From positions 1 to 41,160 of the forward strand of contig JALONP010000024.1 of assembly GCA_025454875.1 (NCBI GenBank): a stretch of 41,160 bases of DNA, written 5' to 3'. A program made the position numbers and the translations under genes. This document shows positions 23,722-41,160 of this stretch, piece by piece. Origin of the DNA: Bacteroidia bacterium. GTDB taxonomy: Bacteria; Bacteroidota; Bacteroidia; UKL13-3. Position 1 is the first letter of the stretch; each line of letters starts with the position of its first letter. The notes below the pieces were generated by a model. The model did no database searches. It was not told the DNA's origin and saw nothing but the letters and a program-made list of their open reading frames with translations.

Positions 23722-24774
23722 GTGAAAACTTATCGGATGATTGGCGTTATGAGCGGGACTTCGCTCGATGGCTTAGACTTGGCATATTGTGTTCTACAAA
23801 AACTCCCTACTGGCTGGACATACACCATTGAAGTTGCGCAAACAATTCCTTATTCACAAACATGGTACACACGGTTAAAGGAATTACCCAACCAACCCAT
23901 GTTTTTGTTGCCTAAAACAGATTCTTTTTTTGGTAAATATATAGGTCAATGTATCAACCAATTCATTAAAGAACACACATTGCAAGTAGATTACATTGCA
24001 AGTCATGGGCATACTATTTTTCACAATCCAGACGAGAATTACACTACTCAAATAGGCAGTGGCGCAGCCATTTATGCCGAAACAGGTATACCAACTATTG
24101 TCGATTTTAGAAGTGTTGACGTAGCATTGGGAGGACAAGGAGCTCCGTTGGTTCCAATTGGCGATGATCTTTTATTTTCGGAGTATGATGCGTGTTTAAA
24201 CTTGGGAGGATTTGCCAATATCAGCTTTCAAAAGGATGGATATCGAATAGCGTTTGATGTTGTTCCATGTAATTTGATATTAAACGAATATGCGCAGCAG
24301 GTTAATAAACCATATGACGAAAATGGTGAAATGGCACGTTCAGGTGTTTTGATTCCTGATTTATTAAACGCATTGAACAGTTTGTCGTATTACCATAAAG
24401 GGGCAGCAAGCAAGAGTCTTGGCCGGGAATGGGTTGAAATGCATATTTATCCAATTACCAACCAATTTAATATGCGTATTGAAGATATTCTATGTACCTT
24501 AACCGAACATATCGCTTTGCAGATAGCACCTTATTGTAAGCCAAGCACCTTAGTTACCGGAGGTGGAACTTATAATAATTACTTACTTGAAAGACTTGAG
24601 TTATTAAAACCATCAAATACAATAATTGCGACTCCCGAAAGTAACCTTATTAACTATAAAGAAGCATTGATTTTTGCCTTATTGGGGTGCCTGAGGGTGG
24701 AACAAAAACCAAATGTATTTCCCTCTGTAACGGGTAGTAAGTATAGCAGTATTGGGGGGTGTATTTATGGTTGA
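23722..24774 (+). CDS. anmK: Anhydro-N-acetylmuramic acid kinase
   Basis: A 350-residue enzyme that phosphorylates and opens 1,6-anhydro-MurNAc to MurNAc-6-phosphate, recycling peptidoglycan. The N-terminal MIGVMSGTSLDGLDLAYC is the AnmK phosphate-loop signature, followed by ASHGHTIFHNP, IGSGAAIYAETGIPTIVDFR, GGQGAPLVPIGD (catalytic Asp region), NLGGFANIS and LVTGGGTYNNYLL. The GTG at 23722 gives the usual lead-in MKTYRMIG; ATG 23737 is the alternative and would lack five residues. A TACTATTG box at 23710-23717 sits immediately upstream, so the mRNA may have almost no leader. The GT51 transglycosylase in this window also acts on peptidoglycan. Confidence 0.96.
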   Translation: MKTYRMIGVMSGTSLDGLDLAYCVLQKLPTGWTYTIEVAQTIPYSQTWYTRLKELPNQPMFLLPKTDSFFGKYIGQCINQFIKEHTLQVDYIASHGHTIFHNPDENYTTQIGSGAAIYAETGIPTIVDFRSVDVALGGQGAPLVPIGDDLLFSEYDACLNLGGFANISFQKDGYRIAFDVVPCNLILNEYAQQVNKPYDENGEMARSGVLIPDLLNALNSLSYYHKGAASKSLGREWVEMHIYPITNQFNMRIEDILCTLTEHIALQIAPYCKPSTLVTGGGTYNNYLLERLELLKPSNTIIATPESNLINYKEALIFALLGCLRVEQKPNVFPSVTGSKYSSIGGCIYG

Positions 24775-24937: not shown

Positions 24938-24970
24938 TTTGGTTGTTAGCGCAAAATTGGCTTACTTTTG
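24938..24970 (+). promoter_or_regulatory. Promoter for the first giant surface protein
   Basis: TACTTTTG (24963-24970) is an exact TAnnTTTG match; TTG at 24943-24945 (17 nt before) and TTTG at 24938-24941 (21 nt before) are -33 candidates. Start near 24976 gives a leader of about 19 nt to ATG 24995, which argues against the GTG at 24980. The rest of the 220-base gap after anmK shows no other signal. Confidence 0.72.
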
Positions 24971-24994
24971 CGTGATTGAGTGTATTATAACCTT

Positions 24995-27900
24995 ATGATT
25001 CAGAACCTGCTTAACTACTCCCGAGCCATTTTGGGTTGCCTAATAATGGTATGCTTTACACAATTGGTGTATGGACAACAGTTGTATAATATTTCTGGAA
25101 CTGCAACTGTTTTGCCAAATGAAGATGGAGTTGAATTGACGCCAGAAGCCAATACACAAGTTGGTTGGGCCTACTATAGTAGTAAATTTAACTTGTCTGT
25201 AAAAGACAGTTTGGTATTCAAAATCTTTTTAGGAGATAACAATGGAGGTGGTGCAGATGGAATGGTATTTATCATGCATAATGATGTAAGAGGGTTCTCT
25301 GCTAGAGGTTGTGCCGGAGAAACAATGGGATATGGAACCCATCCTGATGGGTTAAGTTCCGCTGAATGCGGTTTTGGAACCCGATCTGCCATTACACCTT
25401 CGTTAGCTATCGAATTTGATACTTACCCAAATAGTTTTGATCCTACTTTCGACCATATTGCTTACCTAGAAAATGGAAATGTAAACCACGGATCTAACTT
25501 TATCGATGTTGGTGGTAATTTAGATAACAATGTTGAGCATGACTTCAAACTGGTTTGGGATCCGAGTCTAAATAACCTTAAAATATACTTAGATAATACC
25601 CTGATGTTGGATACAACAAGGGATATTATCAACTCAGTTTTTGGTGGTACAGCTCAGGTTTTTTGGGGTTTTGCTGCCTCTACTGGTGGGTCAGTTAACC
25701 AACAATATTTCAGGCTAATTGATGACAATGTTATTGTGGTAACTCCCACAGTTACTTCAATAGCAAGTGGTAATTGGTCAACCCCATCTGTTTGGAGTAC
25801 GGGTGTTGTACCAAACCCTGATGACAGTATTATTATTTCGGCAAGTCATACTGTAACCATTGATCAAAATGTCTCGGCTAGGGCAATATCAGTTTTAGCT
25901 ACAGGTATTCTTCAGTTTGAAGCCACTACCAACCGGACGGTTACGCTTACAAGCGGTATGTATATTTTAACCGGTGGAACCTTACGCTCCAACCCAACTG
26001 GTGTGGCGCTGCATCAACTTAACTTAGGAGGCAACCTATCCAATGCAGGAACACTTGATTGCAATACAGGCATATCTGCAGGCTTGAACATCACATTTAA
26101 CAACGCGTTTCGAAACCAATTTTTGAATTTAACGGGCGCAACACTCACTGACTGGCGAAGATTGACCATTAACAAGGCTAATAATAACTTTGCTGTAGTA
26201 TTACAAAGCGCATTAAGCTTTACTGAAACTAACGATACATTGGTTCATACTTGGGGAAGAATTGACCTAAACGGTAACAGTTTAACCTTAGGCAGTTATT
26301 ATGAAGTAGCCAACAGCTCTTCATTTTCTGGAAGTTCAAGCTCAAACTTAACTTTGAGTGGAAGCAGTGCAACATTTAACAATATCAGTTTTTTTGCAGG
26401 AGCGCAAGTGCTCAATAACTTTACAGTTAGTAGGAATGCTGGTTTGGGTACTGCGTTAACGGTAAATGGTGTTTATACCTCAAGTGTTGGCTCCTTAACC
26501 CAAGGCACTTCTTTAGCATTAAATGGAAACATTGTTTTATCAGGCGGAACAATTACGGTGGGTACCAATACATTAACAATTGGTAGCAATTCTATAACAA
26601 GATCGGCTGGAGGCATTAATCCTGGCACTGGAACAATAACCTTTAATAATTCGAGTGCACTTGTGGTGCCAGTTTCTTTATTTACAGCTGCCTTGAATAA
26701 TTTAACCATCGCGTCTTCTGGCGGGGTTACACTTTCGGAGAATTTATCGGTTAATGCTACAACTACACTTACTTCAGGTACACTCAGCGTAGGTGCAAAT
26801 ACTCTAACCGCTGCAAATTGGGTTAATAATGGAGGTCAACTAAGCACTACGAGTGGAGGTGTCACCTTTAACGGAGCTACCAGAACAATTGGAGGTACTG
26901 CGAGTACCAATTTTGGAGTGTTGACTGTTGCGAACAATACCACAGTAACAATGAACAACAGCAACAGTTGCGCTTCATTTGTGTTTGCTACTGGGGCCAA
27001 TGCCAGCACATTCACACATGGTACAGGGGCTGTTCTCACGGTGAATGGAGCGGTTACCATACCAAACCCTTCTGCGAGCGTTGTGAAAAATTGGGCCATT
27101 AATGCTGGAAGCGCAACTATTTCTGGAAATGTGAACATTGGAAATAACTCGTCAACACTGAATCAAGTTGCAAGAATTACTGTTACTACAGGTAGCATAA
27201 CAATTTTAGGAAACCTGGTTTTTTCTTCTAGTAACAATCCCAATGCTAATTTGAATATCAATACCGCTGGTGCCACAGTCAATCTTGCAGGGGTTTTTTC
27301 TAATATCACCCAAGGCAGTATTACTGCGAGTGCAACAAGTAATTTTAACTTCAATGGTACGGTGAATCAAATTATCCCGATGGCCAATACCAATATTACA
27401 TTTGGAAATTTGATAATCAATAACACTAATGTAAATGGTGCCACTGTGAATGGAAATATTTCAACGGCTAGGCTATTGGGGAATATATCGGTGAATAGCG
27501 GATTGTTTAGAACGGGTGGTGTGTCTGTCACCATGTCGAACGGTAGAAGTATCACGGTTGAATCTGGAGCAACATTCAATGCGGGAAGGTCAGTTATTTC
27601 TTTTGGTACTGGAACAAAATCGTTCACTATTAACGGCACGTTAATTAGTTCAAATCTTGTTGGCTTTTCAGGATCTGCAACAGCAACGATTAATTCTACA
27701 AATGCGCCAACATTCGCGCTTACCAATGGCACCTTTATATTTGACTCTTCGGGTGCGCAAGTGGTTACGAGCAGGACAGATTATGGCAATGTTATTTTAT
27801 CAAACGGAAGTAAAACCATCAGTGCAGGTAGTTTTACTGTTGGTAATTTAACCATTAATACAGGAGCCACATATAATGGTGGTACAAACAACCCAACACT

Positions 27901-30900
27901 TACTGTAAATGGTAATTTTACAAATAATGGAACATTTACCTCTGGAACCAATGTAACTACTTTTGCTGGCAACGCGCCTCAAACGATCGGAGGTACAACA
28001 GCAACAACGTTTAGCGGGAATGTTTCTTTCTCAGGAACAGGTCAGGCTACATTATCCAACAATATCAGTGTGGCTGCTAATCGTACCCTCACTGTTAATG
28101 CGAATAAGACATTGGACCTTGGATTATTTACAGCTAATGCTGCTAACACCACCAATACGTTGGTTCTTTCGGGTACGTTAAAATTAGGAGCAGCTACTGG
28201 CGGGCAAACAGGAAGTAATTTCCCTACAGGATACAATACAATTACCATTAATGCTGGAAGTACAGTTGAATACAATGGTGCTAATACAATAACCCAAACT
28301 GTTTATTCATCCGGAACAACGGCTTATTCCAATCTTATACTAACTAACGGAACGGGTTCTGGAACCGCTTTCAAACGTTCAACTGCTAGTTTTTCTGTGG
28401 GCTCTACATTTGAAGTGAAATCAGGGGTGCAGTTTACGCCCGCTGCTTTGAATGTAATTAGTGGAGCGGGTTCCCTCATAGGCAATGGAGCCATTGATGT
28501 TACAAACAGTCCTAATAACGTAGCGACCCAATATACTTTAACAAGAACAGGATTTTCAGGCACAATTGGAACAGGTTTTAGTGGAGCAATTGCAGGAGGA
28601 ACATATTCCAACCTAACACTAACAGGAACTGGGGTGCAAGCATTATCGGGAAATATTATTGTAACAGGAAGTTTAACCATTGGATCAGGTACACAAATAG
28701 ATCCAACCACAAGTGATTTTAGCATTACATTAAGTGGCAATTGGGTAAATAATGGCAATGGTATTAGTACCCAAGCAGGCAGTTCGGTGATATTTAACGG
28801 AACAAACCAAACGATTAGTGGCAATACGACTAGCTTCAATAGTTTAACCATTAGTTCAGGTACAACCACGTTAGCGGTTAATACAACCATTCTCGAGAAC
28901 CTTACTGTATCTGCTGGAGCAACCTTAAGCTTAGGTACATTTACCTGCAACCGTTCAACGAGTGGTGGAACCCTTACGGTTGCAGGTTTATTGCAAGTTG
29001 CCGGAGCAAATAACTTCCCTGCTAATTTTACTACCAGAACAATGACAGGCGGTACGGTAGAGTTTAATGGTTTAAATTCTGTTACACAGCAAATTGGAAC
29101 GGGATTTACTTATAATAATTTGTTGCTCACCAACGGCAGTGGAACAGGAAATGCTGCTAAAACAAGTGCGGGCAACTTCACAGTGAATGGTAATTTAACC
29201 ATTTCGGAGAATTGTACGTTTACCCCCGCTGCTGCCAATGTCGTGAGTGGAACAGGTACTTTAACGGGAAATGGCACAATTGCGATTACAAGAACAGCCG
29301 CAACTCCTGATTTAAATTCACAATACAACCTAACGAATAGGGTGTTAACAGGTTTAACCGCGAATTACTCGGCTGCAGCAGCTCAAACAATCAATGCACA
29401 TACCTATGGGAACCTTTTGTTAAGCGGAAGCAACACAAAAACAATAAGCGGTGGAGCAGTATCCGTAAATGGCACGCTTACAATCAATACGGGAATAACC
29501 TTAGCCACAGGTGGCAACAATATCAATATTGGGGTAAATTGGGTGAATGATGGAACATTTTCTGGAACGGGCACTGTAACATTCAATGGTTCGAGCAACC
29601 AAAGTATTTCGGGCACAAGTACAACTCCTTTTAATAACTTAACAATTAGCAATAGTGGATCGGATAGCGTATTTGTTGCTTCCAATATCACCGTAAGTGG
29701 TAACTTAACGGTAAATGCTAATTCTACGTTGGTTCCATCCGCTACCGCTACGGTTGGTGGAACAGGAACTTTATTGGGATCGGGTGCTATTTTGGTAAGC
29801 AGCACAGCTGCAACTCCGTTAACAACCCAGTACACAATTACCAATCGTACACTTACAAGTTTATCAGTTAATTACGAATCAACAACTGCTTCTACCATTA
29901 CCGCGGCTTCTTATGGAAGTTTGTTAATTACAGGAAGCAGGGGAGGTAATTCAGTTACCTTAGCATCAGGCACAATTGGAATTGCCAATACCTTTTCACC
30001 AGCAGTCGAATTTACCTCGGGTAGTTACATCACAACAGGCAATACGATAGACTTTAATGGCAGTTCTTCGCAAACAATTCCTTCCTTTAACTATCAGAAT
30101 TTAACCATAAGTGGATCTAGAGGAGGTAATACAGTAACACTGGCTGCAGATACAATTGGCGTTGTTGGGGTATTATCATTCACAGCTACCAATCTGAGCT
30201 ATGGAATTACAGGCAGTACTATTGAATTTAGAGGTTCAGGAGCACAAACAATCCCTGCGTTTAACTATTTTAACTTATTGATAAGTCAAGCAAGAGGTGG
30301 CGCAAATATCACCCTCGCTACTGGAACAATTGGGGTAGCTGGAGCGGCTTCACTTACAGCAACAGGAATAGGTTCAATTGTAAACGCAGGCAATACAATG
30401 GATTTTAATGGATCAAGTTCTTTTGAAATTCCACCATTGAGTTTAAACAACCTAGTTGTTTCTGGCAATAAAAATGGAGGCGTTGTGACCCTTGCTCCTG
30501 GAACCATTTCTGTAGCAGGTTCATTTATTAATACGGCCACTAATGTTGGAAGTTATGTTACCACCAACAATACCTTTCAATACTCTGGCAGTGGAACACA
30601 AACAATTGCAGCATTTGGGTATAATAATCTGAGTTCTACAAATGCTGACCGAATTTTATCGGCCACAGCAGATATTCAAATAGCCGGAACGTTTACCCCA
30701 GGAACTGGAAACTACACAACAACTAACTCAACAGTTGTTTTTAATGGAAGTGCCTCACAAACGATACCTCCACTAAACTATTTTAATTTAACCTCAACCT
30801 CAACGGGTTCAAGAACCTTCGGAACCGCAGATACGATTCAAATTGCCGGAACATTTACCCCAGGTACTAATAGTTACACAACGGTAAATTCCACCGTTGA

Positions 30901-33900
30901 GTTTCAAGGCACATCAGCACAATCTATCCCTGCGTTTAATTATCATAATTTGGTAGTAAGCAATAATAGAGGTACAAATAATATTACCCTTGCTTCTGGC
31001 ACCATCGGTGTTGGAGGTACATTCACCAACAATGCTAGCTTCACAAGCGGAGGATTTGTTAGTACAAATAATACCATCAACTATAATGGTTCGGGGCCAC
31101 AGTCTGTAGCAGCATTCAATTACAACAACTTAACAATTTCTGGCCCACGCACTGCTGGAGATATCACATTCCCTGCGGCAGTCGTTGGGATAGCAGGAGT
31201 TTTTAATCCAAGTGCAGCTTTTTCTTCAGGCACTTACATCACTTCCTCTGGAACGATTAATTATAATGGGAGCAGCAATCAAAGCATAACTGGGTTTACT
31301 TACAATAATTTAAGCTTAAATGGAGGCAGCACCAAACTGGCAGTTGGTTTACTTACCATTAACGGATTACTTGATATTGGGTCAGGTGTATTGTCACTTG
31401 GAACATCTAATCTTATTCTGAATGGTACGTATTCGAGCAGCGGTTCAATAAGTGGAACATCTTCGTCAAGGTTAATTATTAACGGAACGGGAGCCTTGTC
31501 TGCATTCTCATTTCAAAGTGGCGGACAAGCATTAAAAACATTAATCTTAAACAGGACTTCAGGTAATTTTATTTTAGGATCGAATATTGCCATTGCGGAT
31601 TCGCTTACCCTTACAAATGGAAATGTGATCATCGGTTCGCAAACACTTACTATTAATGGAGTTATTACGCGTACAAATGGATTGCTGCAAGCAGGCTCTA
31701 CGTCAAATCTGAGTATTGGTGGTTCAGGCACTTTAAACAATCTATTATTTGTTACCGGAACAGATTCATTTAACAATGTTACGATTAACCGTTTAAGCAG
31801 TGGTCTTGTTTCGCTTGCAAGCAGTTGGAAAATTGGGGGAGTCCTTACATTAACACAAGGGTCATTAGCTATTGGCAACAACACATTGATTTTAAATGGA
31901 ACATCGACTAGAACAAATGGGTTCTTGGCTGGAAGTGCCAATTCAAATTTAACTATTGGTGGTACGACAGGAGGAGAATTTGGCTTTATTGCATTTGCTA
32001 CCGGAGACGAAACCTTGCAAAACTTAACCATAAATAGGTCTGGAGTAAATGCGAATGTTACGTTAGCAAGCAACCTTACGGTTAACAATGTTTTGGAAAG
32101 AACAAATGGATCATTTACGTTAGGCATAAATACCCTCACCTTAAACGGAACAGTAACAGGACCGAATGGATTTGTGGGTAGCAATAGTTCAAGCATTGTA
32201 ATTGGGGGGAGTGGTAATTTTGGCACATTAAGACTTGTAACCAATACCAATTTATTGAACCTAACAATTAATAGAAGCTCCTCTGGTTCTGTTACTTTAG
32301 GAAGTAATTTAGGAATTGCGTCAACGGGTGGGATTACGCTAAGTAATGGAGTATTGGTCTTAAATGGAAATACCTTAACCATAAATGGTAACCATTCACG
32401 CACTAGCGGTACAATAACAGGAAGCAATACTTCAACAATTGTACTAAGGAGGGGGCTTCCTTTTTCAAGTGCACTTGCATTTACCGCAGGGGCACAAGAA
32501 CTTGGTGTACTCACAGTGAATGGGGCGGGTGGTTCTTTTCCTCTTGGTAGCGACCTCACTGTTCTAACAACCCTCAATATGAACCAAGGTGTCTTGAGTA
32601 TTAATAACCAAACGCTAACAATCGAGGGACAGATTAGTGGTACGAATGCTACTTTTAGTGGGAGCTTGAATTCGAGCTTGGTTATTAATGGAACAGGTCC
32701 GCTAACAGCGTCTAGCATTGGTTTCACTACTGGAGCTCGAGAGTTAAATACATTTACCTTTAACCGGGCTGGTGCTTCACTTAATTTAAGTAGCGATTTG
32801 GCCATTTCAAATATTGGAAATTTCGAAGAAGGTACATTGAACTTAAATGGAAACACCCTCACACTTCAAGGGACTGTTAATCGAACAAATGGATTGATTA
32901 ATGCTTCTGGAGTGAATTCAACAATCGCAATGAATGGAAGTGTTTCGCAAATCATTGCTGATGATATTTTTGTAGACACCCTTGTACGTAACCTAACCAT
33001 AAACAATGCATCTGGGGTAAGCATGGTTGGTAAAATAAAACTTACAGGGATATTAACACCAACTGCTGGAACCCTCACCACAAATGATAACTTGGTATTA
33101 ATCAGCAACGCTTCTGGAACCGGAAGAATTGCAGCTGGCTCTGGGTCATATATTACAGGAGATGTTACAGCCCAGCGTTTTGTTGATTCTACCGGCAGAA
33201 GGTGGCGCTTTATGGCAAGTCCAGTAACAGGCACAACTGTGCAAGATTGGCAAGATGAAACACATATTACTGGCCCTGGTGGTGCTGTAAACGGTTTTGA
33301 TCCAAGCAGCAATAACACGCCTAGTATTTTTAGCTACAATGAATCATTACCTGGTGATTTAAATCAAGGTTTTGTTGCTCCAACAAATATCAATCAAGGT
33401 TTAGGAGTGGGCGTGGGTTACCGGATATTCATCAGAGGAGACAGAACTCCATCTAGGTTAACAGGATCACTCTCTACGCAAGGCGCAGTTACACTTGATT
33501 TGGTGGGTCCTGTGAATATAGGCGATATCTCCATGCCAGTTACATATACTTCACATAATGGTGTTGCAAACGATGGTTGGAATCTACTTGGTAATCCTTA
33601 CCCTTGTGATTACGATTGGAATGCATACCATGATGCTGGCAGGAATGATGTTATTGATTCAACAACGGGCACAAATTATACAAAAATTAGCCCAGTGATT
33701 TATGTATTAAATGCAATCTCTAACGGTTATGATTCTTACAATGCAAAATCAAATATTGGTATTGGTGCATTGTCAGGCGGGATTATTCCGCATGGGGCTG
33801 CTTTTTGGGTGAAAGCAACGGCATTGTCTCCTTCAATGACTTTTGTAGAACCTTACAAAACAAATTTAAGTGCAGGCAATATTTACAAAGCTGAGAATAC

Positions 33901-34876
33901 GGCCTTTAGAATCAAGTTGATTAGAGATGGTATCAACACGGATGAACTCGCAGTGAAATACATGACCGGGAGTATGGTAAATTTTGATGGTTATGATATT
34001 CAAAAATTATCTGGGGCCGTTAATATATCTGCTTATGGAGCAGACAGCATATTGCTCGCAGCCACAGTGAGGCCAATTCCTTTGGGCAATGATACCATTA
34101 GATTACGCATTGCAGTGGGGTCAAGTGCATCTATGAATGGAACATACACACTTGATTTTCGTAATACAGAATCAATCTCCTTACTCGACCAGCTCTGGCT
34201 GGTAGACAACTATTTGGGTACCATAACAGACTTGCAATTAAATCCTACATACACGTTTACGATTACTACGAGTATCTCAGCCACGCAGGGCTCAGGTCGT
34301 TTCTATTTGGTAGTTGGAAATAATAGCCAATTGCCAGTTACGTTGATTCAATTTAGGGCCCGTTCTATAGATGGTCAGAAGGTTGGCTTGACATGGAGTA
34401 CCGCTCAAGAAATAAACAATAAAGGATTTACGGTTGAGCGAAGTATTGACGGTAAAACGTTCAATCCAATTGGTTTTGTTGATGGTAAAGGAAATGCAAA
34501 TAGGCTTTCAAACTACTCATTTGACGATTTGGTTCCAGAAGCAAACAATTTTTATCGCTTGGCGCAAATTGATTTTAGCGGGGATACCTATTATTCACAA
34601 GTGATTCAAGTGAAATTAAACAACAAAACTACCGACCAAGTGTTGATTTCACCAAATCCTGTAAGAAGTGGTGGTACGATCAGTTTGCAATCTGGAGATA
34701 GGCAACTGAAAGGCTATCGAATTCTTGATTACAATGGTCAATTCCTTCAAGAAGGGTTTATACAAAACCAATCGAATGAATTGTTAATTCAAAATTGGCC
34801 AACAGGAGTGTACTTTTTACAATTACTACTGGAGGACGATACCTTGATTGAGGAAAAGTTAGTTATTGCAGATTAG
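24995..34876 (+). CDS. Giant T9SS-secreted lectin/beta-repeat surface protein (probable adhesin)
   Basis: A 3293-residue protein with a signal peptide (MIQNLLNYSRAILGCLIMVC). Residues about 30-245 form an L-type (legume-like) lectin domain with ADGMVFIMHN, IEFDTYPN near residue 140 and FDHIAYLENGNVNH, the usual metal/sugar-binding region. A SGNWSTPSVWS module follows near 259. Residues about 270-2720 are Gly/Thr/Ser/Asn-rich beta-strand repeats of several classes (listed separately), probably a long beta-solenoid stalk. Near 2730-3010 is a Bacteroidota domain with RWRFMASP and GWNLLGNPYP. A FnIII-like segment (about 3110-3205) and a type A sorting domain (ISPNPV to KLVIAD) end the protein. 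It is predicted to be exported by T9SS and to bind glycans or surfaces (inference). Modules are shared with the next gene. Confidence 0.9.
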   Translation: MIQNLLNYSRAILGCLIMVCFTQLVYGQQLYNISGTATVLPNEDGVELTPEANTQVGWAYYSSKFNLSVKDSLVFKIFLGDNNGGGADGMVFIMHNDVRGFSARGCAGETMGYGTHPDGLSSAECGFGTRSAITPSLAIEFDTYPNSFDPTFDHIAYLENGNVNHGSNFIDVGGNLDNNVEHDFKLVWDPSLNNLKIYLDNTLMLDTTRDIINSVFGGTAQVFWGFAASTGGSVNQQYFRLIDDNVIVVTPTVTSIASGNWSTPSVWSTGVVPNPDDSIIISASHTVTIDQNVSARAISVLATGILQFEATTNRTVTLTSGMYILTGGTLRSNPTGVALHQLNLGGNLSNAGTLDCNTGISAGLNITFNNAFRNQFLNLTGATLTDWRRLTINKANNNFAVVLQSALSFTETNDTLVHTWGRIDLNGNSLTLGSYYEVANSSSFSGSSSSNLTLSGSSATFNNISFFAGAQVLNNFTVSRNAGLGTALTVNGVYTSSVGSLTQGTSLALNGNIVLSGGTITVGTNTLTIGSNSITRSAGGINPGTGTITFNNSSALVVPVSLFTAALNNLTIASSGGVTLSENLSVNATTTLTSGTLSVGANTLTAANWVNNGGQLSTTSGGVTFNGATRTIGGTASTNFGVLTVANNTTVTMNNSNSCASFVFATGANASTFTHGTGAVLTVNGAVTIPNPSASVVKNWAINAGSATISGNVNIGNNSSTLNQVARITVTTGSITILGNLVFSSSNNPNANLNINTAGATVNLAGVFSNITQGSITASATSNFNFNGTVNQIIPMANTNITFGNLIINNTNVNGATVNGNISTARLLGNISVNSGLFRTGGVSVTMSNGRSITVESGATFNAGRSVISFGTGTKSFTINGTLISSNLVGFSGSATATINSTNAPTFALTNGTFIFDSSGAQVVTSRTDYGNVILSNGSKTISAGSFTVGNLTINTGATYNGGTNNPTLTVNGNFTNNGTFTSGTNVTTFAGNAPQTIGGTTATTFSGNVSFSGTGQATLSNNISVAANRTLTVNANKTLDLGLFTANAANTTNTLVLSGTLKLGAATGGQTGSNFPTGYNTITINAGSTVEYNGANTITQTVYSSGTTAYSNLILTNGTGSGTAFKRSTASFSVGSTFEVKSGVQFTPAALNVISGAGSLIGNGAIDVTNSPNNVATQYTLTRTGFSGTIGTGFSGAIAGGTYSNLTLTGTGVQALSGNIIVTGSLTIGSGTQIDPTTSDFSITLSGNWVNNGNGISTQAGSSVIFNGTNQTISGNTTSFNSLTISSGTTTLAVNTTILENLTVSAGATLSLGTFTCNRSTSGGTLTVAGLLQVAGANNFPANFTTRTMTGGTVEFNGLNSVTQQIGTGFTYNNLLLTNGSGTGNAAKTSAGNFTVNGNLTISENCTFTPAAANVVSGTGTLTGNGTIAITRTAATPDLNSQYNLTNRVLTGLTANYSAAAAQTINAHTYGNLLLSGSNTKTISGGAVSVNGTLTINTGITLATGGNNINIGVNWVNDGTFSGTGTVTFNGSSNQSISGTSTTPFNNLTISNSGSDSVFVASNITVSGNLTVNANSTLVPSATATVGGTGTLLGSGAILVSSTAATPLTTQYTITNRTLTSLSVNYESTTASTITAASYGSLLITGSRGGNSVTLASGTIGIANTFSPAVEFTSGSYITTGNTIDFNGSSSQTIPSFNYQNLTISGSRGGNTVTLAADTIGVVGVLSFTATNLSYGITGSTIEFRGSGAQTIPAFNYFNLLISQARGGANITLATGTIGVAGAASLTATGIGSIVNAGNTMDFNGSSSFEIPPLSLNNLVVSGNKNGGVVTLAPGTISVAGSFINTATNVGSYVTTNNTFQYSGSGTQTIAAFGYNNLSSTNADRILSATADIQIAGTFTPGTGNYTTTNSTVVFNGSASQTIPPLNYFNLTSTSTGSRTFGTADTIQIAGTFTPGTNSYTTVNSTVEFQGTSAQSIPAFNYHNLVVSNNRGTNNITLASGTIGVGGTFTNNASFTSGGFVSTNNTINYNGSGPQSVAAFNYNNLTISGPRTAGDITFPAAVVGIAGVFNPSAAFSSGTYITSSGTINYNGSSNQSITGFTYNNLSLNGGSTKLAVGLLTINGLLDIGSGVLSLGTSNLILNGTYSSSGSISGTSSSRLIINGTGALSAFSFQSGGQALKTLILNRTSGNFILGSNIAIADSLTLTNGNVIIGSQTLTINGVITRTNGLLQAGSTSNLSIGGSGTLNNLLFVTGTDSFNNVTINRLSSGLVSLASSWKIGGVLTLTQGSLAIGNNTLILNGTSTRTNGFLAGSANSNLTIGGTTGGEFGFIAFATGDETLQNLTINRSGVNANVTLASNLTVNNVLERTNGSFTLGINTLTLNGTVTGPNGFVGSNSSSIVIGGSGNFGTLRLVTNTNLLNLTINRSSSGSVTLGSNLGIASTGGITLSNGVLVLNGNTLTINGNHSRTSGTITGSNTSTIVLRRGLPFSSALAFTAGAQELGVLTVNGAGGSFPLGSDLTVLTTLNMNQGVLSINNQTLTIEGQISGTNATFSGSLNSSLVINGTGPLTASSIGFTTGARELNTFTFNRAGASLNLSSDLAISNIGNFEEGTLNLNGNTLTLQGTVNRTNGLINASGVNSTIAMNGSVSQIIADDIFVDTLVRNLTINNASGVSMVGKIKLTGILTPTAGTLTTNDNLVLISNASGTGRIAAGSGSYITGDVTAQRFVDSTGRRWRFMASPVTGTTVQDWQDETHITGPGGAVNGFDPSSNNTPSIFSYNESLPGDLNQGFVAPTNINQGLGVGVGYRIFIRGDRTPSRLTGSLSTQGAVTLDLVGPVNIGDISMPVTYTSHNGVANDGWNLLGNPYPCDYDWNAYHDAGRNDVIDSTTGTNYTKISPVIYVLNAISNGYDSYNAKSNIGIGALSGGIIPHGAAFWVKATALSPSMTFVEPYKTNLSAGNIYKAENTAFRIKLIRDGINTDELAVKYMTGSMVNFDGYDIQKLSGAVNISAYGADSILLAATVRPIPLGNDTIRLRIAVGSSASMNGTYTLDFRNTESISLLDQLWLVDNYLGTITDLQLNPTYTFTITTSISATQGSGRFYLVVGNNSQLPVTLIQFRARSIDGQKVGLTWSTAQEINNKGFTVERSIDGKTFNPIGFVDGKGNANRLSNYSFDDLVPEANNFYRLAQIDFSGDTYYSQVIQVKLNNKTTDQVLISPNPVRSGGTISLQSGDRQLKGYRILDYNGQFLQEGFIQNQSNELLIQNWPTGVYFLQLLLEDDTLIEEKLVIAD
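27430..28560 (+). repeat. Module in the first giant gene homologous to the super-repeat of the second giant gene
   Basis: The encoded residues match the second protein almost colinearly for about 370 residues. Shared landmarks are SFGTGTK..TINGT, TGATYNGG/TGATYNGA, GNFTNNGTFTSGT, GGQTGSNFP, LTNGTGSGTA/LTNGSGSGTA and FTPAA.NVISG.G. The closest matching stretch in the second gene is about 36880-37930. DNA identity is only moderate, so the duplication is old. Confidence 0.75.
29909..31320 (+). repeat. 53-60-residue repeat class, nine units, inside the first giant gene
   Basis: Nine units are marked by a (F/L)NYxNL anchor at about 29909, 30087, 30259, 30436, 30614, 30772, 30935, 31115 and 31295, spaced 158-180 bases and in frame. 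A typical unit reads TIxFNGSSSQTIPxFNYxNL, then a Gly/Arg turn, then VTLAxGTIGVAGxF. The units with SGSRGGN are the most alike. Confidence 0.8.
31400..32970 (+). repeat. About 81-residue repeat class, six units, inside the first giant gene
   Basis: Six units carry an LxNLTINR-like anchor at about 31532, 31769, 32015, 32251, 32501 and 32743, spaced 236-250 bases. Each unit continues with LASNLxIxxxLTLTxG, then LxIGxNTLTLNGTxxRTNG and a SNSxLxIGGSG segment. This class is distinct from the 53-60-residue class just before it. Confidence 0.8.
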
Positions 34877-35056
34877 GATTTCATATAGATTAAGCTGTTG
34901 TTTTTGCTAAATAAGTGGTTGTAAAAGCAGATGTTTTGTAAATATCAAGAGTTTCTAGTTGATGCAACCTGAATTTACAAATTGTCATCCTAATAATGGG
35001 TTTTAGCATTAAATAGTGCTGACTAAGGGATTTAATGCAACATTAACCTGTATGCA

Positions 35057-35088
35057 TTGGTATTGAGTCGTATTTTGGTATATTTTTG
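35057..35088 (+). promoter_or_regulatory. Promoter for the second giant surface protein
   Basis: TATTTTTG (35081-35088) matches TAnnTTTG exactly, with TTG at 35057-35059 (21 nt before). Start near 35094 leaves a leader of about 21 nt. The 238-base gap after the first giant gene (34877-35114) shows no hairpin terminator and no other gene. Confidence 0.65.
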
Positions 35089-35114
35089 CTTGATTTTTAG
35101 ATAAGTATATATTG

Positions 35115-38100
35115 ATGAAAACAATTAGTATTCAACGCGCATTTTTGAGTTTGATCTTTACTTTTTTGGGATTATTTTCTCAATTAAGACAGGCCAATGC
35201 ACAACTATTGCTAGATCCTGCCAGTTCCGGAGGTCCCTTAAGCAATGTAGTTGCATCATCAGGGAGTGCTAATACTTCTATTGCAATAGCTTACTCTATC
35301 AGGCAACTCAAAACCACCTATGACCATCCAGCAACCATTACTCCTCCAGCTGCCGTTACTGGATTTACAAATTCAACACAACCACTCTTGCGCGTTCGTA
35401 GAAGTTTTGACAACGCTCAATTGGATATTGGTTATGATATTAATGGGAACTTAGATTCTGTAACCCTCAAAAACTTCGTTACAGGGAAAATTGGAATCGC
35501 AGGACCAACCAATCCAACTGCAAGTGGTTTTGTTACGGTGTGGTATGATCAAAGTGGAAATAGCAGGGATGCATTTCAAACAAACACAAGCCAGCAACCA
35601 CGAATCATTAATGCGGGTGTGATAGAACGAAATTCAGGTGGTCAAATAGGATTTTATGGTGTAAGCGGTGGGATGCTTGAGCATCAAACAAGTGCTGGTG
35701 CCCCTATGAATGAACCTGCTGGTATCAATATTTATGGAATTGATGCAGATCGGACAATGACAGTGGTATCACAACCGAGAGTGTATGCAAACGGTGGAGC
35801 TGCTGATGGAGGAGGTACTTACTTAATTGACAGGAACGGAAGCACCGGTGATCAAGACAGGCCATTAACTTGCTTAAAAGCAGTTAACAACAATTGGACC
35901 GCTCAAATCAGGAATTTGGCCGGAGATATATCTTCAAGTTTTGAAGGCTCAGTGCCTATTTCAACCTCACGTAGTGATAATGTATTTTTATTAAGATCAG
36001 GTGATCTGTATTCGTTGTATGTAAATGGAATATTTGCGGGCAGCAATACTTTAACCGGTGAAAACCGAATGACTCCTGTTCGTATAGGATACGGAACAAA
36101 CACGGGTGAACAAGTGTATTATGGTGAGTTCATATTATTTCCATCAGCATTAAGCAACACAAATTTAACAGCCCTAAACAATAGCCAAAACACCTACTTC
36201 GTGCTTGGCCCTTCTCCTGGTACTTGGACTGGATTATTAAGCAGTGATTGGAATACCGCAGGCAACTGGAGTAACAATGCTGTACCTTCATCTATTACAG
36301 ATGTTACAATTCCTGCTGGAGCTACAACACCACTTGTTATCACTTCAGGTCAAACAACCTTAGCTACTAAAAAATTAACTATTGCATCTGGTGCAAGTGT
36401 AACCATTAATGGAAACATCAATGTGAATGATAGCTTTGTAATGAATGGAACAACAACGGGTACAGGAACCATTACAATGTCAGGTGCATTGCGTCAAACC
36501 ATCAGGGGTACAGCAGGTGCAAGTATCAATAATTTGGTTATTGCCAATACAACCGACACCGTTTGGGCAAGCACCAATATCAATATTGCAGGTACATTAA
36601 CCATTAATGCAAATGCGGAGTTTGGAGCCGTTGCCACAGCAATTGTAAATAGTGCCGCTGCCGCTGGAACTATTACGGGTAATGGAACAGTATTGGTAAC
36701 ACGCACAGCTTCTGTAGCCGATTACCAGAGTCAATATCGTTTTACAACCAATACATTAACCAACTTAACCGTAAACTACCAAGGTGCTGGCGACCAATCC
36801 ATCAACCTAGGTTTAAACCACGGAAACTTAGCAGTTTCTGGTTCTGGTATTAAAACATTAAGTGGAGCGATTTCAGCTACCAATGTAACAGGATCAATTA
36901 CAGTTAATGCGGGCACCTTAAGCACTGCAAACAATAATATTGGTTCACCCACCAATCGAACAATCACGATTGGTCCAAACGGTATACTTGATGCCGGAAG
37001 TGGTATTATTTCATTCGGAACTGGAACCAAAACAATCACCATTAATGGTACTTTTAGAACAGCTAATACAAATGGTTTCACGGGCTCTGCCACAACGGCA
37101 ATCGCTAATACAAACACGCCAACGGTAACGCTTGGTGCTGCTTCAACGATTGAATATTCGGCTGCCACTGCACAAACGGTAACCGCACGCACTGACTATG
37201 CAAACCTTACGATGAGCAATGGCTCGAAAACAGTTTCGGGAACGATTACATTATCAGGAGCGCTTACGATTAATACAGGCGCAACGTATAATGGTGCTGC
37301 TAACCCAGTACTCACAGTAGCCGGTAATTTTACCAACAATGGAACATTTACAAGCGGAACAGGAGCAGTAACATTTAATGGAACAACTGCACAAACAATA
37401 ACAGGAGCTACCACATTTGGGGGAAATGTTGTTTGGAGTGGTGCTGGACTTAAAACATTGGCTTCCAATATTGTTGTTACTGGCGACCAAAATATTAACA
37501 GCGGTGCAACGCTCAATTTGGCAACATTTACTGCAAACAGAAGCGCTGCAGGAGGCACTTTAACAGTTGCAGGTACGTTAAGAGTAGGAGGTAATACTGG
37601 TGGACAAACAGGAAGCAATTTCCCACTCAATTTTACTACCAATACCCTTTCTGGAACTGTTATTTATGATGGCTCAAATGCAATTACACAAACCGTGTTT
37701 GCCACAACCTATACCAATATTACATTAACAAATGGAAGCGGTTCAGGAACCGCCAATAAAATATCTACGGCAAGTTTTACAGTAAATACAGGAAATTTTA
37801 CAATTAATACAGGTGCTAGGTTTACACCGGCAGCAGCCAATATTATCAGTGGAACTGGAACATTAACCGGAACTGGAATTGTAGAAGTAACAGGTACAGA
37901 TTTACCAACACAATATACCATTACCAATAAGGTTCTAACCAACCTAACAATCAACTACGCAGGTGGAACCCAAACTATTCCTAGTGGGACGTACTCGTCT
38001 TTAACAGTAACTGGTGGCGGAACTAAAACCTTGGGCGGAGCGGTTACCGTTACAGGTTCTGTTACCATTGATGCAAGCAATACCCTTGATGTATCTGCAA

Positions 38101-41100
38101 GTAACTTTGCTTTAAACGTTGGAGGTAATTTTACCAACAATGGAACCTTTACGCAAAGAGCAGGGACAGTAACGTTAAACGGGTCGGGATCCCAAACAAT
38201 TTCTGGCTCTACCACAACCACATTTAACAACTTAACCATCTCTAAAACCACCGATACAACCTTTGTTAATTCTAGTATCAATGTATCGGGTACCTTATCG
38301 ATTGGGACTTCGGTTAATACCGTATTTTTTCCTTCTGCCACTTCCATCATTAATGCTACGGCTGCTGGAACCCTTTCAGGAACTGGCGGAACAATTTATG
38401 TTACTCGTGTTTTAGCTACCGCTGATTTTAGAACCCAATACAATTTTAGCACATATACATTAACTAACCTCACTGTTAATTATTCTGGTGCTGGTAACCA
38501 AACCATCAATATCACAGGAACTCCTACTATTAATTATAGCAATTTAGTGGTGAGTGGCTCAGGTACTAAAACGGTTAATGGAGCTATTACTGGTACAAAC
38601 GTTACTGGCAATATTACGGTGAGTGCTGCAACAATGAGCATGAACAACCAAAATCTGGGCTCACCTGCAAATAGAACTATCACAATAGCTGTTGGCGCTA
38701 TATTTGATGGTGGATCGGGCATAATTTCATTTGGCGCTACTACAAGAGTTATCAATATTAACGGAACATTTCGAACTGCTAACACTACCGCTTTTTCAGG
38801 CAATGTTAATGCTTCAATAAGCAACACGAATACACCTACGATTACACTTGGAACTGCTTCTACTATTGAGTATTATGCGGCAGCAACGCAGCCGGTAACC
38901 GCCAGAACTGATTACGTGAATGTAACATTTACGGGAGGTTCGAAGACACTTCCAGCAGGCACGAGAACAATAGCTGGCAATTTGTTAATTAATGCGGGGG
39001 CTACCTACAATGGTACAACCAACAATCCAGTAATCACCGTTAATGGGGATTTTACCAATAATGGAACATTTAATCAAGGCACTGGGACTTTTACCTTAGG
39101 TTCAACAACCACCCAAAGTGTAGGGGGCACCACCACTACCAGTTTTGGTAATATTACTTTTAGCGGATCAGGTGGAGTAGCTACATTAACAGCAAATATT
39201 CAAATAACAGGAAACCTTACAGTAAGCACGGGTAAAACATTAAACCTGTCAACATTTACCGCAAATAGAACGGCCGCTGGAGGCACTTTATCTGTTGCGG
39301 GCACCTTGAGGGTTGGAGGAACTACAGGAGGGCAAGCTGGAAGTAATTTCCCATCTAATTTCACCACATTTACCCCAACAGGTGGAACCGTTGAATATTA
39401 TGCAAATGGCGGTACAACCCAAACGGTATTTGCTACAACTTATAATAACTTAACGCTTACCAATGCTAACGGGTTGGATACAGCATTTAAAATTTCAACA
39501 GGAAATATAGGAATAGGTGCTGGAACGTTTAGCATCGGTTTGCGTGTTCGTTTTCAACCAGCAGCAGGAAACGTTATCACCGGTGCAGGTGGAACCCTAA
39601 CAGGATTTGGCTCAATTGATGTTTCTGGAACTGCAGATTTGGCAACGCAATACAATATTACTACGCGTACGTTAACTAATCTTACAGTTAATTATACGGG
39701 GACTACACAAACCATTGCTGCGGGGACCTATCCGTTGTTAACTATTTCGGGTGGTGGAACCAAAACACTCGGTGGAGCGGTTATTAGTACGGGTACGGTT
39801 ACCATTAATTCTGGTAATACGCTTGACGTTTCTACTAGTAACTTTACCTTAAATGTTGGGGGCGATTGGACCAATAATGGAACCTTTGTGCAGCGTTCGG
39901 GTACAGTTAACTTTGATGGGATTAACGCACAAAGCATTGGAGGAACAACAGCTACTACATTTAACAATTTAACCATCAGCAATACGGCTGCTGCCGTTTC
40001 CGTAACCAATAATATCAATGTTCAAGGTACCCTTAATGTTAACGGTACAAATGCCCAACTTTCTCCTTCGGCAACCAGCGTAATCAATAGTGGAGGGGCT
40101 GGAACATCTATCTTAACTGGTACTGGAATTGTTTATGTTTCGAGAGTCGCAGTGACTGCCGATTTTAAAAATCAGTATGTTTTTAATACATACACATTGG
40201 GAACATTAACTGTTAATTACAATGGTAGTGGAAACCAAACTGTTAATTTCGGGGGAACGCCCGCAGTTAACTACAGCAATTTGATTATTAGCGGTAGTGG
40301 AATTAAAACAATGGATGCAGCAATTACTGCAACAAACCTAACAGGCAATCTCACGGTTAACTCAGGAACCTTCTTTACCAATAACTTGAATATCGGTTCA
40401 CCTGCCAATCGAACAATTACGGTAGCCACAGGCGCAATATTTGATGCTGGTACAAGCGTTATTACTTATGGAGCAACCATTAGGGTATTAAACCTAAATG
40501 GAACATTTAGAACAGCTAATACCAACGGTTTCTCTGGAGGGGCTTCTACTTCTATTGCTAGCACAAACACTCCAACACTTGTGTTAAATAGTGCTTCAAC
40601 TGTTGAGTATTATGGTGTAGGCGCGCAAACCATTACGTTGAGCCATAATTATGGTAATTTGCAAATCAATGGAGTTGGAACCAAAACGTTAGCCGCAGCT
40701 ATTACAACCACCAACGTAACCGGAGATATCATTGTATCATCGGGTAATTTAAGTAATGGAGGATTTGCGATTACCGGTAATAATGACAACGAAATTAATA
40801 TTGGGGCTGGTGATTCATTATCATTAACAAGCACTTCAAGTTTCCCAAGCGGCTTTGGTACATTTACCATTGCCAATACAAGTACAGTATTGTATTCGGG
40901 TGCAAATCAAAACATTGCCAGCCGCAGCTATGGAAATTTGGTAGCATCAGGTACCGGCACAAAAGTTTTATTAGGCAATACCACTGTTAATGGAAACCTA
41001 ACAACAAGCGGTACTGGTTTTAGCGCCTCTAGTTTCACATTAACTGTTAACGGCAATTGGATAAACAATGGCACATTTACAGCATCAACGAGTACGGTGA

Positions 41101-41160
41101 TATTGAGTGGAACAAGTTCACAGGGGATATCAGGAAGTACATCACCAACGTTTAATAACT
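35115..41160 (+). CDS. Giant beta-repeat surface protein with GH54/LamG-like head, partial (runs off the window)
   Basis: ATG 35115 opens a signal peptide (MKTISIQRAFLSLIFTFLGLF, cleaved near ANAQ), and the frame stays open to the last base: 2015 residues, no stop. Residues about 30-350 resemble the alpha-L-arabinofuranosidase B (GH54) / concanavalin-like fold: AIAYSIRQLKTTYD, LRVRRSFDNAQLDIGYD, TVWYDQSGNSRDAFQ and QQPRIINAGV, then LYSLYVNGIFAGSN. Whether it is catalytic cannot be told; many Bacteroidota surface proteins reuse this fold for binding. A TWTG...DWNTAGNWSNNAVPS module follows near 368. From about 400 on it is Gly/Thr/Asn-rich beta-strand repeats with a 566-579-residue super-repeat. 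A T9SS sorting domain is expected beyond the window. It is probably a paralogous adhesin of the preceding gene. Confidence 0.88.
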   Translation, partial: MKTISIQRAFLSLIFTFLGLFSQLRQANAQLLLDPASSGGPLSNVVASSGSANTSIAIAYSIRQLKTTYDHPATITPPAAVTGFTNSTQPLLRVRRSFDNAQLDIGYDINGNLDSVTLKNFVTGKIGIAGPTNPTASGFVTVWYDQSGNSRDAFQTNTSQQPRIINAGVIERNSGGQIGFYGVSGGMLEHQTSAGAPMNEPAGINIYGIDADRTMTVVSQPRVYANGGAADGGGTYLIDRNGSTGDQDRPLTCLKAVNNNWTAQIRNLAGDISSSFEGSVPISTSRSDNVFLLRSGDLYSLYVNGIFAGSNTLTGENRMTPVRIGYGTNTGEQVYYGEFILFPSALSNTNLTALNNSQNTYFVLGPSPGTWTGLLSSDWNTAGNWSNNAVPSSITDVTIPAGATTPLVITSGQTTLATKKLTIASGASVTINGNINVNDSFVMNGTTTGTGTITMSGALRQTIRGTAGASINNLVIANTTDTVWASTNINIAGTLTINANAEFGAVATAIVNSAAAAGTITGNGTVLVTRTASVADYQSQYRFTTNTLTNLTVNYQGAGDQSINLGLNHGNLAVSGSGIKTLSGAISATNVTGSITVNAGTLSTANNNIGSPTNRTITIGPNGILDAGSGIISFGTGTKTITINGTFRTANTNGFTGSATTAIANTNTPTVTLGAASTIEYSAATAQTVTARTDYANLTMSNGSKTVSGTITLSGALTINTGATYNGAANPVLTVAGNFTNNGTFTSGTGAVTFNGTTAQTITGATTFGGNVVWSGAGLKTLASNIVVTGDQNINSGATLNLATFTANRSAAGGTLTVAGTLRVGGNTGGQTGSNFPLNFTTNTLSGTVIYDGSNAITQTVFATTYTNITLTNGSGSGTANKISTASFTVNTGNFTINTGARFTPAAANIISGTGTLTGTGIVEVTGTDLPTQYTITNKVLTNLTINYAGGTQTIPSGTYSSLTVTGGGTKTLGGAVTVTGSVTIDASNTLDVSASNFALNVGGNFTNNGTFTQRAGTVTLNGSGSQTISGSTTTTFNNLTISKTTDTTFVNSSINVSGTLSIGTSVNTVFFPSATSIINATAAGTLSGTGGTIYVTRVLATADFRTQYNFSTYTLTNLTVNYSGAGNQTINITGTPTINYSNLVVSGSGTKTVNGAITGTNVTGNITVSAATMSMNNQNLGSPANRTITIAVGAIFDGGSGIISFGATTRVININGTFRTANTTAFSGNVNASISNTNTPTITLGTASTIEYYAAATQPVTARTDYVNVTFTGGSKTLPAGTRTIAGNLLINAGATYNGTTNNPVITVNGDFTNNGTFNQGTGTFTLGSTTTQSVGGTTTTSFGNITFSGSGGVATLTANIQITGNLTVSTGKTLNLSTFTANRTAAGGTLSVAGTLRVGGTTGGQAGSNFPSNFTTFTPTGGTVEYYANGGTTQTVFATTYNNLTLTNANGLDTAFKISTGNIGIGAGTFSIGLRVRFQPAAGNVITGAGGTLTGFGSIDVSGTADLATQYNITTRTLTNLTVNYTGTTQTIAAGTYPLLTISGGGTKTLGGAVISTGTVTINSGNTLDVSTSNFTLNVGGDWTNNGTFVQRSGTVNFDGINAQSIGGTTATTFNNLTISNTAAAVSVTNNINVQGTLNVNGTNAQLSPSATSVINSGGAGTSILTGTGIVYVSRVAVTADFKNQYVFNTYTLGTLTVNYNGSGNQTVNFGGTPAVNYSNLIISGSGIKTMDAAITATNLTGNLTVNSGTFFTNNLNIGSPANRTITVATGAIFDAGTSVITYGATIRVLNLNGTFRTANTNGFSGGASTSIASTNTPTLVLNSASTVEYYGVGAQTITLSHNYGNLQINGVGTKTLAAAITTTNVTGDIIVSSGNLSNGGFAITGNNDNEINIGAGDSLSLTSTSSFPSGFGTFTIANTSTVLYSGANQNIASRSYGNLVASGTGTKVLLGNTTVNGNLTTSGTGFSASSFTLTVNGNWINNGTFTASTSTVILSGTSSQGISGSTSPTFNN
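36591..38288 (+). repeat. Super-repeat copy 1 (566 residues) in the second giant gene
   Basis: The boundary is set at the GTLxI strand. The order of landmarks is: ADYQSQYRF, LTNLTVNYQGAGDQSI, NRTITIG, SFGTGTKTITINGTF, ARTDYANL, TGATYNGA, GNFTNNGTF, TANRSAAGGTLTVAGTLRVGG, GGQTGSNFP, GARFTPAAANIISGTG, LPTQYTI, SNFALNVGGNFTNNGTF. The same order recurs in the next copy. Confidence 0.82.
38289..40025 (+). repeat. Super-repeat copy 2 (579 residues) in the second giant gene
   Basis: It repeats the landmark order of copy 1: ADFRTQYNF, LTNLTVNYSGAGNQTI, SPANRTITIA, NINGTFRTANT, ARTDYVNV, GATYNGTTNNP, TANRTAAGGTLSVAGTLRVGG, GGQAGSNFP, RFQPAAGNVITGAGG, LATQYNI, SNFTLNVGGDWTNNGTF. The length differs from copy 1 by 13 residues, a whole number of codons. 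Confidence 0.82.
40026..41160 (+). repeat. Super-repeat copy 3, cut by the window end
   Basis: It begins as the other copies do (ADFKNQYVF, LTVNYNGSGNQTV, SPANRTITVA, NLNGTFRTANTNGFSGGA), but after about residue 200 it moves into a different strand order (NNDNEINIGAGDSLSL), so it is either divergent or a shorter variant. The rest lies outside the window. Confidence 0.7.

Follow-up and report, generated by a model that had tools for sequence, protein, structure and literature searches.

The giant gene pair and its surroundings

The window, that is, the whole stretch of DNA analysed here, is a complete contig (C37; 41,160 b) of an assembly comprising 2.98 Mb in 37 contigs. It carries two giant genes that are adjacent and on the same strand, as a preliminary description of the sequence had proposed: their open reading frames span positions 24980-34876 (3,298 codons) and 35112-41159, both on the plus strand (Table 1). 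The assembly truncates gene 2, since the contig ends at position 41160. All 36 remaining contigs were examined at either end for overlap and open frames that might continue gene 2 (one of them, C4, 2.8 kb, is all N), and none does. T9SS tails lie at the end of C32 and the start of C34, neither of them linkable to gene 2. The genes upstream of the pair are ordinary and encode an OmpA/PD40/TPR protein, glutamine synthetase III, a phosphoribosylanthranilate-isomerase-like protein, an aminotransferase and AnmK. The pattern TTG-N-TAnnTTTG, which we take to be a Bacteroidetes-type promoter motif, occurs ahead of each giant gene, and the two may therefore be separate transcription units; the scan of the window for this pattern returned 16 matches in total, 10 on the plus and 6 on the minus strand.

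Table 1. Features of the giant gene pair and its upstream anchor, in window coordinates
Feature	Position	Strand	Basis or remark
anmK (anhydro-N-acetylmuramic acid kinase)	23722..24774	+	Pfam AnmK 1.8e-65; syntenic anchor of the giant-gene locus
Promoter-like motif, Bacteroidetes-type, before gene 1	24939..24970	+	Pattern scan
Gene 1, giant putative surface protein (3,293 aa, counted from the ATG)	24995..34876	+	ORF 24980-34876
Gene 1 signal peptide	24995..25075	+	Plausible by eye, ...LVYG/QQ
Gene 1 head, L-type (legume) lectin	25085..25717	+	PF18483 E 1e-33, PF00139 9e-12, PDB 7elv 4.1e-20
Gene 1 G8-like segment, head/stalk junction	25793..25987	+	PF10162 E 1.4e-6
Gene 1 stalk block common with gene 2, ~1.4 copies of gene 2 super-repeat	27347..29761	+	
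Gene 1 stalk, ~59-aa repeats	29837..31339	+	Residues about 1620-2120, tile comparison
Gene 1 stalk, ~80-aa repeats	31337..33079	+	Residues 2120-2700, tile comparison
Gene 1 post-stalk C-terminal module	33269..34645	+	Weak fn3-like part, fn3 E 0.023
Gene 1 T9SS C-terminal sorting domain	34646..34867	+	PF18962 5.5e-8, 33.4 bits vs cut-off 27
Promoter-like motif, Bacteroidetes-type, before gene 2	35057..35088	+	Pattern scan
Gene 2, giant putative surface protein (at least 2,015 aa)	35115..41160	+	ORF 35112-41159, open at contig end
Gene 2 signal peptide	35115..35201	+	Plausible by eye, ...RQANA/Q
Gene 2 head, diverged GH54-like (AbfB N-terminal)/LamG-type	35247..36200	+	Alignment with relatives' GH54-like modules
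Gene 2 G8-like segment, head/stalk junction, weak	36264..36467	+	PF10162 E 0.013
Gene 2 super-repeats, ~579 aa	36732..40760	+	Full copies 36732-38435, 38436-40172; partial third 40173-40760

Por_Secre_tail, the T9SS sorting domain, is matched 118 times in the window's own genome, which is thus rich in T9SS substrates; to our knowledge, the T9SS is confined to Bacteroidota. The highest-ranking of these matches falls in a protein with DUF4397 repeats encoded at positions 15046-16776. The same contig encodes a TPR/PD40/carboxypeptidase-regulatory/OmpA protein at positions 16891-18945, an architecture presumably associated with the T9SS component PorE.

Different heads on the two proteins

The two heads had been described as different carbohydrate folds, and this holds. 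The gene 1 head spans positions 10-213 of the 215 in the Lectin_L-type profile (117 bits) and has the motif E-x-D-x-x-x-N ... D ... H (IEFDTYPNSFDPTFDH, aligned to VEVDTWLNDFDAPATTDH of 7elv), which we take to be the metal/sugar site of L-type lectins. Searched alone, the gene 2 head matches only Laminin_G_3, with E 0.03-0.06. Seven domains from related giants align with it and match ArabFuran-catal (PF09206), and a profile of all eight aligned domains matches AbfB (1wd3, 2.8e-7) in its N-terminal segment only. Seven of the eight alignment rows match PF09206 and the gene 2 row does not, with no match at E 10. A full GH54 catalytic domain was not found: the similarity of the relatives stops at profile position 90 of 315, corresponding to AbfB residue 88, and the catalytic residues presumably lie beyond this point. 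Because the similarity is limited to the first ~90 positions, a catalytic role is unlikely, and the gene 2 head probably lacks catalysis. A single-sequence fold prediction of this head reached a pLDDT of 35.7, which is too low, and was not used. An NCBIfam search gave no match. Homologues of the C-terminal module of gene 1 are present in all 64 family genomes tested.

A shared stalk block with a predicted beta-helix fold

The two stalks had been proposed to be colinear between 27430-28560 in gene 1 and 36880-37930 in gene 2. Both intervals fall within a larger common block, which extends over about 27347-29761 and 36774-41055. Gene 1 residues 790-1594 align with the ~579-aa super-repeat of gene 2 at 345 bits over 850 columns, colinear for ~800 aa, and in tile BLASTP comparisons gene 1 residues 901-1140 fall on gene 2 residues 661-891 with 51-59% identity, a match that lies within the intervals first proposed. 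As controls, we compared the real pair with the best of 100 shuffles: residue shuffles reach at most 23.5 bits and shuffles of 20-aa blocks 96.7, while other beta-strand giants reach no more than 94. The self-comparison thus yields a signal in excess of generic low-complexity likeness (345 bits versus 97 or less).

At the DNA level, the two genes are recognisably identical only in short runs of 29-89 bp. The shared units are 48-54% identical in amino acids, and their fourfold-degenerate sites agree in 25-34% of cases, against ~30% by chance; this saturation shows that the stalk sharing is ancient, with the protein sequence conserved since. The two full super-repeat copies within gene 2 are 64% identical in amino acids, and their fourfold-degenerate sites agree in 40% of cases (29% by chance).

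An AlphaFold prediction for positions 27347-28774 of the block, made from a five-row alignment of window sequences, is nearly all beta (pLDDT 78.7, pTM 0.80) and models as a right-handed parallel beta-helix (beta-solenoid), so the shared block is predicted to have one fold. VIA-align assigns the predicted block Z values of 14.6 with Vag8, 12.6 with SRRP and 11.9 with EtpA; the beta-helix is a common repeat fold, and these values therefore support shape, not function. Foldseek alone found no match below E 0.03 in the PDB.

The anmK locus in related genomes

In the following, G000 denotes the window's own genome, G001 a sister species and other G numbers further genomes of the family. Of 39 genomes of the family, 37 have anmK. 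Directly 3' of it, in 12 family genomes other than G024, lies a dehydrogenase gene, read from its sequence as being of the glutamate/leucine type; in G024, a giant broken by a frameshift is placed between the two genes. G015 has a giant after anmK and its dehydrogenase at another place, and the G009 contig stops inside a giant-like frame 3' of anmK. In G020, the dehydrogenase lies on a different contig from anmK and is preceded by a giant-like gene whose frame is broken. In the window's own genome the dehydrogenase is located inside contig C24, not after gene 2. The proteins of G009, G015 and G024 begin at the G8-like segment and have no head.

In the sister species, anmK is followed by giant A, the larger of the two giants there, then by accessory genes over ~56 kb, and then by giant B and the dehydrogenase; both giants carry GH54-like modules. 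The heads at the locus thus range from none (G009, G015, G024) through GH54-like (G001) to lectin plus GH54-like (the window). One or two giants occupy the locus in several other relatives, where their heads differ or are absent. A scan of named genomes added only three distant relatives, with 27-32% identity. Following the genes 3' of giant A in the sister species gave no partner contig for gene 2.

Gene 1 residues 2388-3294 match the tail of giant A (564 bits, 938 columns) and the gene 2 head matches the heads of giant A (82-92 bits); recombination has thus moved modules around within the locus as a whole. The lectin head of gene 1 has no match in G001. The best matches of the gene 1 tail are giants of other genomes rather than of its own, and the tree of the C-terminal module is star-like and does not resolve the orthology of whole syntenic giants. 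The tails of giants A and B contain a direct repeat of 1,733 bp with 98.96% identity, indicative of recent module homogenisation.

Giant A (L147, L146; G001:C1:2624626-2641086) consists of frames of 2,668 and 2,869 codons separated by one TAA, which stands in-frame after residue 2668, inside a conserved repeat motif, and may represent decay, a sequencing error or switching. A frame of 4,769 codons with one TAA also occurs in G010:C3. In the accessory segment between the two giants (G001:C1, about 2568700-2624600; L243-L245, L146) there are two restriction-modification pairs, in which restriction genes of HaeIII type and NgoFVII type accompany C5 methylases, along with IS110-type transposases, MBOAT and a C39-type ABC transporter.

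Other tandem giants

We compared the stalks of 27 long proteins, mostly from the window's own genome; 43 of the 351 pairs match, and the window pair ranks fourth among them. The best stalk similarity (1,167 bits) belongs to two other adjacent giants, located on C5, which share a stalk of 2,147 columns with 41% identity. Further same-strand giant neighbours are found in relatives, for example in G015:C47, G062:C137 and G006:C63. Tandem giants that share modules are a usual feature of this genome and its relatives, and the window pair, while not unique, is mainly a good example of the general pattern. Its value lies in a one-locus comparison, across its own species, the sister species and other genera, of the exchangeable heads, stalks and tails of T9SS giants.

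The C5 region (G000:C5:142500-170000; L216, L217) contains three consecutive T9SS giants of 2,965, 2,696 and 2,422 codons, of which the first two form the pair just described. Between two genera, L225 (G000:C13) and L231 (G015:C47) have a 356-column stalk segment that is 57% identical, a likeness exceeding that between the window genes; transfer or strong constraint may account for it.

Possible role and origin of the pair

The homology of the heads, the predicted stalk fold, the T9SS tail of gene 1, the shared block and the synteny suggest, with a probability of roughly 70%, that the pair encodes surface rods of beta-helix fold, exported by the T9SS and tipped with exchangeable heads of glycan-binding type, and that giants turn over at this locus. 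Both proteins would be exported via Sec, cross the outer membrane via the T9SS and be held at the cell surface by a C-terminal sorting domain, which gene 2 presumably encodes beyond the contig end. Each would consist of a rigid rod, a parallel beta-helix thousands of residues long, whose N-terminal end, the one most distant from the C-terminal anchor, bears a head of carbohydrate-binding type: gene 1 has an L-type lectin, gene 2 a GH54-like/LamG domain that is probably non-catalytic. The most likely role would be that of surface adhesins or glycan-catching fibrils, and the two heads may differ in specificity and ligands. The locus beside anmK would gain, duplicate and recombine giants, thereby reshuffling stalk, head and tail modules between neighbours.

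As to origin, the preliminary description had envisaged duplication of a stalk module followed by head exchange. Stalk sharing and head turnover are supported by the common block, the different heads and the varying heads at syntenic loci, but a history of a single duplication is not established. The combination of a gene 1-type tail and a gene 2-type head in one G001 protein argues for repeated shuffling over one duplication plus one head swap, which is just one of the routes that could have led to the pair.

Among the alternatives, the best placed, though well short of even odds, is that two unrelated giants became neighbours and then swapped the stalk block by recombination between repeats. 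It is consistent with the restriction of homology to part of each stalk, with the stalk blocks shared by non-adjacent giants (C2 and C5, 378 bits; C13 and another genus, 57% identity) and with the 99% identical tails of two G001 giants; the highest stalk similarity in the window's own genome, however, is between adjacent genes, which tandem duplication fits equally. Slightly less probable is a tandem duplication of one whole giant, with the N-terminal head later replaced in one copy. The adjacency of the genes on one strand, their common stalk block, the G8-like segment after both heads and the two giants at the same locus in the sister species agree with it, but residues 272-790 of gene 1 and 372-540 of gene 2 are unalignable beyond the weak G8 match, synonymous sites are saturated and the gene 1 tail is best matched in other genomes. 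Whole-gene duplication and transfer of the stalk block are inseparable here because the tail of gene 2 is missing from the assembly.

A degradative role, with heads acting as enzymes of GH54-like glycan hydrolysis and rods forming extracellular degradative complexes rather than adhesins, is improbable: the head family does resemble GH54 AbfB, but over profile positions 10-90 of 315 only, the gene 2 head has no PF09206 match of its own, and L-type lectins are binding domains. That the likeness of the genes reflects nothing but Thr/Gly/Asn composition is refuted by the shuffle controls and the long colinearity, even though composition is biased in most giants (T+G+N+S fraction 0.37-0.53).

Returning to surface rods with exchangeable heads, we tentatively consider the site 3' of anmK a dedicated diversification locus, where giants would recombine via their repeated stalks and near-identical tails, swap heads and accept accessory islands (restriction-modification, IS110) between two giants; this is a speculative extension, and strains could then quickly gain new surface-binding combinations.

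Comparison with known systems

The T9SS beta-strand-repeat/G8 giants of Bacteroidota resemble the window genes in a putative signal peptide, G8-like start, predicted beta-helix repeats and, for gene 1, a C-terminal module with Por_Secre_tail; the window genes differ in the L-type lectin or GH54-like head added in front, and the other giants at the anmK locus are headless or have several heads. Fibrillar adhesins of the CshA type probably differ from the window giants in folds and anchoring. They are alike in head exchange: the published account describes ligand-binding domains exchanged between adhesins through domain shuffling of the ligand-binding fold (PMC10952558). In Apilactobacillus kunkeei, the consecutive genes Giant1-5 encode extracellular beta-solenoid proteins of 3,000-8,000 aa, diversified by intragenic recombination (PMC12863079). 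These resemble the window genes in forming a giant-gene cluster and in their beta-solenoid domains, but the host is Gram-positive, the beta-solenoid is N-terminal and not a stalk, and the T9SS is absent. Giant-gene clusters (PMC12863079) and head shuffling (PMC10952558) thus have published precedents.

A literature search with the term 'beta strand repeat-containing protein' found nothing relevant. The beta-helical autotransporter and two-partner adhesins Vag8, UpaB and EtpA and the SRRP binding regions depend on type V or accessory Sec secretion. They resemble the shared block in its predicted beta-helix, with Z values of 10-15 at a sequence identity of only 10-17%.
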